Positions 449 to 9,034 of a DNA stretch of 64,000 nucleotides are shown piece by piece. Numbering within the stretch: position 1 is the first letter of the stretch; each line of letters starts with the position of its first letter. The notes beneath the pieces were generated by a model. That model ran no database searches. It was not told the DNA's origin and saw only the letters and a list, made by a program, of their open reading frames with translations. This stretch comes from Acidobacteriota bacterium (GTDB taxonomy: Bacteria; Acidobacteriota; Blastocatellia; RBC074), in the NCBI GenBank assembly GCA_016196035.1, contig JACPYM010000008.1, positions 1 to 64,000 of the forward strand, read 5' to 3'. The translations under genes were made by a program, and so were the position numbers.

Positions 449-976
449 TTATATCGTATCCAAACGCAAGGCAAGGGCTGCGTAATCAGGCCGGTCTGCC
501 GAGGTCCGGTGAAAGTGACTCCGTAGGATTTGCCCAGCTTGAATCAAAAACACACCAGGCATTTGCAACGTGTCGCCGATGGGCAAACCGACCGGATGCC
601 CATTTTTAATGCAGGATTCGAAGCCGCGCACCCAAACGCGCAGCCCCATCACCTGGCCCAAACCGCCGCGTTTCAGCTTGAATGCTTTGTAAAGTCTGGC
701 CCCCGGATCACTCACGCGCGGCACATCGCCGAGGCCGTAACGCGCGAAAAGTTCTGCACCTTGTTGTTCATTGCCCATGTGCACGAACGCCAACTGCGTT
801 CCGATCGCAGCGATGGCCGTGCGTTGTGCCTGCACATCGGCCAGCGCTTCGCGGCAGAACGTTCAACCCAGGTGGCGCAGAAAGACGAGCAGCAAGGGGC
901 GCTCCGCCGAAAGCTCGGCGAGCGTCGTACCGAATTGCGTCCGTGCGGACGATAAGTCAGGTGTGGGTTGATGCAT
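449..976 (-). CDS. Peroxiredoxin-like (AhpC/TSA_2, SelL-related) protein with in-frame TGA: probable selenoprotein
   Basis: Read from the ATG at 976 the frame gives 175 residues, interrupted only by one TGA at 863-865 (codon 38). The context is R-H-L-G-[TGA]-T-F-C-R-E. In the AhpC/TSA_2 thioredoxin-fold family (peroxiredoxin-like 2, SelL-related) this position is the first cysteine of a CxxC redox motif preceded by FLRHxG and followed by CRE. Reading TGA as selenocysteine restores a U-x-x-C centre and a full-length protein. Conventional calling would begin at the ATG at 835 and lose the whole active site. The start at 976 lies 18 nt after the ctaA stop, with a GCGAGG-like site upstream, suggesting one operon. 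A candidate bacterial SECIS hairpin follows the TGA. The likely role is cytoplasmic thiol or peroxide redox chemistry. The alternative is a nonsense mutation, but no other lesion is present. Use of Sec requires selABCD elsewhere in the genome. Confidence 0.8.
832..847 (-). promoter_or_regulatory. Candidate bacterial SECIS hairpin
   Basis: On the coding (minus) strand, 16-31 nt after the TGA, GCGC and GTGC can pair (one G-U) around the loop TGGCCGAT. The apical loop carries G residues early, and its distance from the UGA fits the usual bacterial SECIS arrangement that SelB recognises. The stem is short and an alternative CTGC/GCAG pairing overlaps it, so the exact fold is uncertain. It is coding sequence as well, as in all bacterial SECIS elements. 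Confidence 0.45.
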
Positions 977-994
977 AAATGCCTCGCGTGATGT

Positions 995-1957
995 TCAAGC
1001 TGTCGCAGCCGCTTCGATGGTTGCCAGCCTTGCGCTGTGCAACTGCGGTGTCAGCGCGGCGGCGGTGAGCAGCACCAGCGCAATCCAAATCAAATCGGAA
1101 AGCAGCAGGTGCACAAGCTGCAACCAGGTGGGCGCGTGCAAGAGCAAATTGCTGATGCCCACAGTCAGTTGAAGCACGACCAACACGATCAACGAAATTG
1201 ACAGCCAGTTCGTCCAAACGCTGGGCCGTTGCGCGCGAATCGTGTTGGCGACGAAGGCGAGCAATGTGCTGACGAAAAGCGCGATCAAGGGATGATAAAA
1301 CCGCAAACGGATGAGCAGATGTGAGGTTGGCGACAGGTCTTGCTGCAAGCCTTCGGCCAGTGAGGTGACGGGGAAAAGTGTGGCGCCCAAGGCGGTGATG
1401 GCGCCGCTGACGCCCAAAATCAAAGTGCCCGCGAGTGCCGCCGTCAGCAGCCAGGCACTGTTGTCCTGTTTAGGTGGTGTTGTGGGTTGGGGTTGCTGGT
1501 CTTCGATGGCGGCCCACAGTGTTAACGTAAAAGCGCCCAGCATCAGGAAGGTGTTGATCAAATGGCCTGACATCCACAGCGCGCGGGCGCTGGATTTGTT
1601 TTCGGCGACATATTCAAACAACACCAGACCCGCGCCGACCAGCGCTTCGGTCAGGATGAAGAAGCCAGAAAAAAAGGCCCAGCGCCGCACGGCATGTCCG
1701 CGCTCGTAAGCGCGAAACGCCCAAGCGATTAGGCCTGCGACCAACAACAATGCGAGACCACTGGTCAGGCGGTGCGAATACTCAATCAGCGTTTGCAACG
1801 TGGGCGCGCGCGGAATGATTTCGCCATTGCAGAGCGGCCAATGGCTGCCGCAACCAGCGCCGGAACCCGAGGCGCGGACGTAAGCTCCCCAGGCGATCAC
1901 GGCCAGGTTAAAGGCCAAGACCACACAGGCGTACTTCGCAAAACGATTCAGCTTCAT
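995..1957 (-). CDS. ctaA: Heme A synthase (COX15/CtaA family)
   Basis: A 320-residue polytopic membrane protein that oxidises the heme O methyl group to make heme A for aa3-type terminal oxidases. Visible marks are [13 protein letters not shown] at residues 24-36, a cysteine pair Cys36/Cys43 in C-G-S-H-W-P-L-C like that of Bacillus-type CtaA, the E-Y-S-H-R heme-ligand motif with His62, a second conserved His in M-S-G-H-L (about 132), and a repeat of the four-helix bundle in the C-terminal half with His in F-Y-H-P and L-V-H-L. About eight hydrophobic helices are evident. The start at 1957 is preceded by GCGAGG. The redox selenoprotein follows 18 nt downstream, which suggests co-transcription and perhaps a link to thiol or heme maturation; that link is inference. 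No ctaB or oxidase subunit is in the window. Confidence 0.9.
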
Positions 1958-7761: not shown

Positions 7762-8841
7762 TTACCTAAATTTTTGCGTTTTTTGCTCCGGAGGGGCAGT
7801 GGGCAGTGGCCGGGTATGGAATCCAATGTCCTTGAAATGCTCGTAACCGTGCGTGTTCAGCGGTCTGATTTCAGCGCCGGTGCGCAACAGAACTTTTGTT
7901 TGAGAGTCTGCCGCGACAATCTCGCCAATGCGCGTGAGCGGCAAGCCGCAAACTTGCGCCAGTTGCTGCAATTCGGCTTCGGCTTTGCCATTCGCCGTAA
8001 ACAGCAATTCGTAATCCTCGCCGCCGCTCACGGCCAATTGAAACGCGGCGTGCGCTGCCGTAGCGATTAAGCCGACTTCTTTGGCCACGGGAACCGCAAC
8101 TTGGTCTAGCACGGCGCTGACGTGGCTCGCTTCGCACAGGTGCTCTAAATCCTGTGCCAGTCCATCACTCACATCAATCATTGCATGCGCCAAGCCGCGT
8201 TCGCCTAAAAGTTGCCCGAACTCGCTGCGTGCCGCTGGCCGCAAGTGTGCGCGGAGCGCTTGCTGTTCCAGGCTCGTGCTGGTTTCGTCCACGCGCGCGC
8301 CACGCAACAACAACTGCAAGCCCGCTGCTGCTGCGCCCAAGTATCCGGTGACATAAATGCCATCGCCGATTTGCGCGCCGCTGCGCCGCAGCGCGCGCCC
8401 GGCCTCGCAATCGCCCAGCACGCACGAATCAATGGCCAACCCGTGCAGCGTCGCCGAAATGTCGCCGCCGATGAGCACTACGCCACGGCGTTCGGCGAGC
8501 GCGAAGTAGCCGTCAAAAAACGCTTCCCAAAATAAATCTGATCGAAGCGCTGCCGAAATTGCCAGCGTGAGCATGGCATAGCGCGGGACGCCGCCCATCG
8601 CGGCAATATCGCTGAGGCTGACGGCCAACGCCTTGTGACCGAGCCAGGCAGGGAGGGCGTATTCAAGTTTGAAATCAATGTCCTCGACCAGCATGTCTGT
8701 GGTAATCAGCAACTCGCGGCCAGCGCGTGGGCGAAAGACCGCCGCGTCATCGCCAACGCCCAACGACAATTCCGGCGCTGGCACGCGACTCTGTTGCACG
8801 CGTTCACGAATACGATTGATAAAAGCGAATTCGCCATTCAT
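7762..8841 (-). CDS. thiL: Thiamine-monophosphate kinase
   Basis: ThiL phosphorylates thiamine monophosphate to thiamine diphosphate with ATP. The protein has the PurM/ThiL fold marks: GVGDDAAV near the N-terminus, TTDMLVEDIDF, the helix with S-L-S-D-I-A-A-M-G-G, IGGDISATL, G-D-G-I-Y-V-T-G-Y-L-G, D-V-S-D-G-L-A-Q-D-L and SGGEDYELLF. Its length (359 residues) is normal. I chose the ATG at 8841 (MNGEFAFINRI) because it matches family N-termini. The ATG at 8856 is equally possible, and the frame is open to 8967. The start region lies in a 15-bp tandem duplication. No thiC/D/E genes are adjacent, but the glycine oxidase thiO of the same pathway is at 45-46 kb. Confidence 0.93.
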   Translation of the reverse strand: MNGEFAFINRIRERVQQSRVPAPELSLGVGDDAAVFRPRAGRELLITTDMLVEDIDFKLEYALPAWLGHKALAVSLSDIAAMGGVPRYAMLTLAISAALRSDLFWEAFFDGYFALAERRGVVLIGGDISATLHGLAIDSCVLGDCEAGRALRRSGAQIGDGIYVTGYLGAAAAGLQLLLRGARVDETSTSLEQQALRAHLRPAARSEFGQLLGERGLAHAMIDVSDGLAQDLEHLCEASHVSAVLDQVAVPVAKEVGLIATAAHAAFQLAVSGGEDYELLFTANGKAEAELQQLAQVCGLPLTRIGEIVAADSQTKVLLRTGAEIRPLNTHGYEHFKDIGFHTRPLPTAPPEQKTQKFR

Positions 8842-8868
8842 AGAAAAGTCCGCCATAGAAAAGTCCGC
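8839..8868. repeat. 15-bp tandem duplication over the thiL start
   Basis: CATAGAAAAGTCCGC occurs twice in direct tandem (8839-8853 and 8854-8868). On the thiL strand it encodes A-D-F-S-M twice, creating two equivalent ATG codons with identical upstream contexts. It looks like a recent slippage or duplication event. Confidence 0.8.
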
Positions 8869-9034
8869 TTGAGCGGGCGTGATGTTTGTTTGCGCTGCCG
8901 ATTGTGCAGAAACCAAAACAAGCAAGCAATCCACGCGCACGCCAAACCCGCGCGTCATTTTCCGCATTGGTCAGCCTGAACAACAGCCGCAGCCGTTCCA
9001 AATTTCAGTTTGTGGCAGTGTCGTGCTTGAGGGT

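Follow-up and report, generated by a model that had tools for sequence, protein, structure and literature searches.

In bacteria, SelB binds a stem-loop of the mRNA, the SECIS element, and delivers Sec-tRNA to the UGA codon (PMC10778597). The loop of this element is found 16-37 nt from the UGA (PMC13188914, PMC10778597), and the canonical bacterial model comprises a loop of 3-9 nt, an upper stem of 4-16 bp, a G in the first two loop positions and an energy of -7.5 kcal/mol or lower; some SECIS elements fail this model and form distinct classes (PMC13188914). A total of 119 prokaryotic selenoprotein families was inventoried in 2026 (PMC13188914). The entry nearest to the gene described here is a peroxiredoxin-like AhpC/TSA selenoprotein with a UxxS motif (cd02970), which has been placed under pfam13911 (PMC9312934), and the UxxC form of the NF040769 family is absent from the 119 entries of Table 1 of the inventory. 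In eukaryotes, SelL is a Prx-like selenoprotein (PMC2398784) whose two Sec residues are separated by two positions (PMC3316567).

The DNA analysed here (the window) is a stretch of 64,000 nucleotides from an Acidobacteriota bacterium (assembly GCA_016196035.1, contig JACPYM010000008.1). As described in a first-pass annotation made from the sequence alone, its minus strand contains a frame that runs from the ATG at 976 to the stop codon at 451-449 and is open except for a single internal TGA at 865-863. Read through this codon, the gene (449-976, minus strand; 175 codons plus stop) gives a product of 175 residues with the motif LRHLG-U-TF-C-RE, in which the UGA (863-865) would be read as selenocysteine, U38, the first position of U-x-x-C. 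Standard gene calling yields a 128-residue ORF with a GTG start (449-835) that begins past the TGA and lacks the active site, again as anticipated. The translation scores 155.9 bits against the NCBIfam model NF040769 ('SelL-related redox protein', cut-off 120) and agrees with the members of this family in length, motif surroundings and score. Kinship with AhpC/TSA_2, also proposed earlier, holds as well: PF13911 gives 36.3 bits over a gathering cut-off of 27, and the gene is the sole AhpC-TSA_2 match in the genome, which spans 9.59 Mb on 139 contigs. The UxxS selenoprotein, likened to the present gene by description, belongs to the same Pfam family and has Sec at the same first redox position, but the motif of the window is UxxC. 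Most of the fetched homologues are CxxC (103/129), in contrast to the UxxC of the window; the model may already mention Sec members, and its cut-off is also reached by the Sec forms L107, L116, L118, L156 and L157. Eukaryotic SelL differs in having UxxU where the window has UTFC. Two TGA codons three codons apart (U-x-x-U), as in eukaryotic SelL, are found in the bacterial relatives L156, L157 and L158, with NF040769 scores of 180.6 bits for L156 and 152.3 bits for L157.

An AlphaFold2 model built from 34 sequences, with Cys placed at position 38, reached a mean pLDDT of 91.6, and position 38 immediately precedes the helix formed by residues 39-57. Among PDB structures, human prostamide/prostaglandin F synthase matches the model best (TM 0.65/0.69), followed by peroxiredoxin Q, whose fold is similar. 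In the human enzyme (PDB 9usa, a C44S/C47S mutant) the redox pair is two residues apart, as in the window, although Cys stands there in the place of Sec and identity is 19%. Fold and motif suggest a thioredoxin-fold selenol/thiol oxidoreductase or peroxide reductase, with U38 as the presumed attacking and C41 as the presumed resolving residue.

Homologues were collected from public genomes (80 of 288 loci kept), from 195 relatives (35 matching) and from 396 genomes of the phylum (79 matching). Among 129 aligned loci, the TGA of the window falls exactly on the conserved redox Cys column, the first Cys of CxxC, as the first reading of the sequence had it. The codons of this column are TGC (76 loci), TGT (27) and TGA (26), with no others, and the residue at +3 is Cys in 24 of the 26 TGA forms and in 102 of the 103 Cys forms. 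Two Sec forms, L110 (UxxA) and L129 (UxxP), do without the second redox Cys; where Sec occupies the first position, a resolving Cys may not be needed. The reading preferred here, with a probability of roughly 0.83, is that the window encodes a 175-residue thioredoxin-fold redox enzyme with a catalytic U38 (U-T-F-C), whose Sec would be directed by a displaced hairpin at 801-785 together with a basal helix.

SECIS elements of the ordinary type were scored as the best uninterrupted stem with a G in loop positions 1-2 and a loop 16-37 nt past the UGA, compared with synonymous-codon shuffles. This score replaced a loose bSECIS energy scan, which was abandoned because it did not discriminate (20/21 TGA and 63/88 Cys loci passed, Mann-Whitney p 0.53). 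The mean z was -1.59 (s.e.m. 0.30) for 46 TGA forms, against -0.01 (0.11) for 103 Cys forms (Mann-Whitney p about 1e-8). Since the z of the TGA forms is so far below that of the Cys forms, the Sec forms outside the clade of the window appear from their sequences to carry ordinary SECIS elements, and the Cys forms none beyond chance. Typical elements are GUCGCGC[AGUU]GCGCGAC and GCGUAAA[GGA]UUUACGC, whose loops follow after 25 and 23 nt, respectively. The TGA forms L132, L162, L159, L165, L152, L128 and L163, all outside this clade, have no hairpin of -4 kcal/mol or lower at 16-37 nt, and an Rfam search of eight loci gave no match.

Within the clade of the window, the discovery set consisted of the seven nearest Sec forms (L106, which is the window itself, L107-L110, L136 and L139), and none of them gave a signal in the near-UGA test (z from -1.01 to +1.17). 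Hairpins of -5 kcal/mol or lower at 16-37 nt occur in one of these seven, in 31 of the 39 other TGA forms and in 22 of the 103 Cys forms. The first-pass annotation had proposed as SECIS a hairpin starting 16 nt after the TGA. This hairpin (nt 16-31; 832-847, minus strand) does exist but is weak (GCGC[UGGCCGAU]GUGC, -3.9 kcal/mol) and is not conserved: only 47.7% of the cells are paired across 11 Sec relatives, and its energy is matched by 155 of 300 shuffles of the gene's synonymous codons. It is probably not the SECIS element. Local folds of the 40-61 nt after the TGA had no advantage over shuffles either.

A different hairpin, GAACGC[AGUUG]GCGUUC (785-801, minus strand; loop 795-791), is proposed as the displaced SECIS, that is, the SelB-binding element, owing to its conservation in Sec forms only. 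It has a 6-bp stem and a 5-nt loop, the loop lies 67 nt past the UGA, and the codons involved are GGA ACG CAG NNN GCG TTC. The same spacing is found, by alignment and with no gaps, in ten other Sec forms of the clade. In the clade, the synonymous sites of codons +21 to +26 are frozen, whereas those of most of the gene are not, and codons +21, +22, +23 and +25 alone exceed the 99th percentile of random Cys-form sets. Hairpins of -5 kcal/mol or lower with the loop 60-72 nt past the UGA are present in 7/7 discovery sequences, 7/39 other TGA forms and 19/103 Cys forms. At each of the stem's four free third-base positions the fitting base is present in 11/11 Sec forms, and the G of the loop is equally constant; where Cys forms encode the same amino acid, the fitting base occurs in 40/92, 13/40, 13/32 and 15/30 at the stem sites and in 3/11 at the loop G. 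The full stem with a G[G/U] loop is seen in 11/11 Sec forms of the clade versus 0/97 Cys forms (six pairs without the loop occur in 5/97). The difference persists inside a single family grouping (f30), with stem and loop in 5/5 Sec forms and 0/6 Cys forms.

Once the hairpin had been defined, a second class (193 genomes, the class of G211) was searched as a hold-out and provided four further Sec forms (L197, L198, L199 and L201). All six pairs are kept at the same place in 4/4, an A-U pair having become G-U in three. Wider class and family searches near home found no further forms of the clade. The eleven Sec sequences are related to one another. Five of the six hairpin pairs never vary among them, which leaves little covariation, and the argument is built on the frozen synonymous sites. 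The displaced hairpin is regarded as well supported. The Cys form L142 keeps six weak pairs at the same site, which may be left over from a Sec ancestor.

Compared with the canonical bacterial SECIS, the hairpin of the window agrees in the size of the loop (5 nt), in the stem (6 bp) and in its location within the coding sequence; its loop has G in the second position, followed by G or U, as in 11/11 Sec forms. However, the loop is placed at 67 nt instead of 16-37 nt, roughly double the distance that the rule permits, and behind a separate helix. The displaced element would be one of the distinct SECIS classes. The hairpin alone has an energy of -7.0 kcal/mol and so narrowly misses the published -7.5, a value for which the legend leaves unstated the stretch that was folded, and nt 1-84 with the hairpin forced reach -32.9 kcal/mol. 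The exact pattern, with A fixed at the A position, occurs in the 396 genomes at 17 places in 16 genomes. At three of them (L182, L191 and L195) the upstream in-frame stop is a TGA that precedes the loop by 67 nt, and all three are the SelL-related gene. Because the other 14 of 17 places have no such TGA, the pattern is not a general signal detectable at this strictness.

Some room is left for the possibility that the gene encodes a selenoprotein but SelB uses an unrecognised element at nt 16-37, the hairpin at 801-785 serving for ribosome pausing or mRNA regulation. Such an element would respect the published spacing rule (PMC13188914, PMC10778597), it would be in keeping with the near-UGA hairpins of 31/39 other TGA forms, and certain bacterial SECIS reportedly escape every model (PMC13188914). 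Nevertheless, in the clade of the window only 1/7 Sec forms have a hairpin at 16-37 nt and 7/7 have one with the loop at 60-72 nt, and it is the displaced hairpin that shows the loop pattern of a bacterial SECIS and goes with TGA, not with Cys. This explanation is regarded as unlikely.

The displaced hairpin is accompanied by a second element. Consensus folding adds a helix between nt 6-12 past the UGA (851-857, minus strand, the proposed 5' strand) and nt 55-61 (802-808, minus strand, the proposed 3' strand), which ends exactly where the hairpin starts. This basal helix has on average 6.36 of 7 pairs in the 11 Sec forms versus 3.55 in 96 Cys forms. Its score was reached by 0/1000 set-level shuffles, and by 1/2000 when one sequence per lineage was used. 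When the partners are slid by 1-3 columns, pairing falls from 95.1% to 31-52%. Two pairs of the helix show changes on both sides; columns 12/61 are UA in 8 sequences and CG in 2, and columns 10/63 are UG, GC or UA. The window itself forms 5/7 pairs and its unconstrained fold favours another pairing by 1.0 kcal/mol, and L110 has the helix in another register. When the seven discovery sequences were folded to a consensus over nt 1-60 alone, the result did not go beyond the nulls (75/300 synonymous sets and 89/300 Cys sets); the helix is clear only with nt 61 included and with pairs counted at a fixed register. As this register was derived from the fold of those seven sequences, the clean test is given by the four hold-outs, each of which has 7 of 7 pairs. 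In constrained folds the 42 nt between the strands adopt differing shapes in each sequence, which fits with a stretch behaving as a spacer. Taken from these comparisons, the basal helix is likely.

The genome contains the Sec machinery whose absence, according to the first-pass annotation, would have pointed to a pseudogene. Genome searches found tRNA-Sec (66.9 bits, anticodon tca) and profile matches for selA (582 bits), selB (364 bits) and selD (362 bits). The selD gene has its own in-frame TGA (NCAG-U-ASK), and the loop of its hairpin begins 33 nt past the UGA (-12.7 kcal/mol), within the published 16-37 nt. A small extra hairpin (nt 9-22) lies in selD (L021, 1530-1585) between the UGA and the strong hairpin, a layout that is possibly a smaller version of the two-helix arrangement. 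SelA is encoded in 21/21 genomes whose TGA loci came from the 195 relatives (weakest E 2.2e-93). Its presence was also tried as a discriminator between Sec and Cys and set aside, given that 171/195 relatives are over the cut-off, a result that is consistent but does not separate the two forms. Elsewhere in the window, 7762-8967 (minus strand) encodes an AIRS/AIRS_C protein related to selD (70.3 bits, below the selD cut-off), which is probably a thiamine-monophosphate kinase.

Ordinary gene calling reads the TGA as a real stop, which would derive from a sequencing error or a recent nonsense mutation and leave a pseudogene or a truncated product of 37 residues. Against this, the TGA occupies the same column in 26/129 loci, with the protein conserved on either side. 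The relatives are not broken at several sites, as would be expected of decaying genes, but share the same lone TGA followed by 129-152 open codons in the 26 TGA forms. On a tree of the 129 rows, the Sec label requires 6 changes, of which at least 4 are forced by supported branches, the bootstrap being unsettled and its values rough, and the RNA elements accompany TGA only. From the column counts, the open frames and the changes on the tree, the TGA seems to have been retained through long evolution and swapped with Cys several times. A real stop is consequently very improbable. Because the column holds TGA or Cys only, the frame is intact and conserved, the genome has the Sec machinery and the product passes NF040769, the gene is very probably a selenoprotein and not a pseudogene, as had been proposed. 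Decoding of the TGA as Trp or Cys, whether through suppression or through an altered code, is just as hard to sustain: Sec as the inserted residue is a prediction, but the column admits only Cys or TGA, a tRNA-Sec with anticodon tca is present, SECIS-type hairpins go with TGA and not with Cys, and TGA serves as a normal stop for other genes of the window (as in ctaA).

For the preferred reading, a selenoprotein directed by the displaced hairpin and the basal helix, the following mechanism can be proposed. The basal helix would start five nt past the UGA and fold away the 42 nt between its strands. SelB carrying Sec-tRNA would bind the hairpin at 801-785, which stands right behind this helix and would be reached by a short path through the structure despite the linear distance of 67 nt. 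The SelB site would thereby lie near the stalled ribosome in space. It is fairly probable, with somewhat less confidence than for the preferred reading, that this represents a bacterial SECIS class whose SelB hairpin stands about 67 nt away from the UGA and is returned to it by a helix of variable content that lies in between. A search of the literature, most subscription journals excepted, yielded no displaced bacterial SECIS.

With respect to the gene neighbourhood, an operon with heme A synthase had been suggested. The gene for this enzyme (COX15-CtaA, 995-1957, minus strand; PF02628, 137.6 bits) is indeed located 18 nt upstream on the same strand, which agrees with that suggestion, but CtaA appears in the flanks of only 3/129 loci: L106 (the window), L108 and L109, all from the family of the window and with CtaA directly upstream. 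As no other examined flank of the 129 loci contains it, any tie to the synthesis of heme A is local at most.

If the hairpin at 67 nt works, the spacing rule for bacterial SECIS elements would become a structure rule, and candidates dropped for having no near SECIS would merit a second look. If the displaced class is true, the rule of 16-37 nt misses such genes, and the coding sequence between the codon and the signal could evolve almost freely. The clade of the window would offer a natural experiment, with Cys and Sec forms of one enzyme in one bacterial family and the RNA signal in the Sec forms only.
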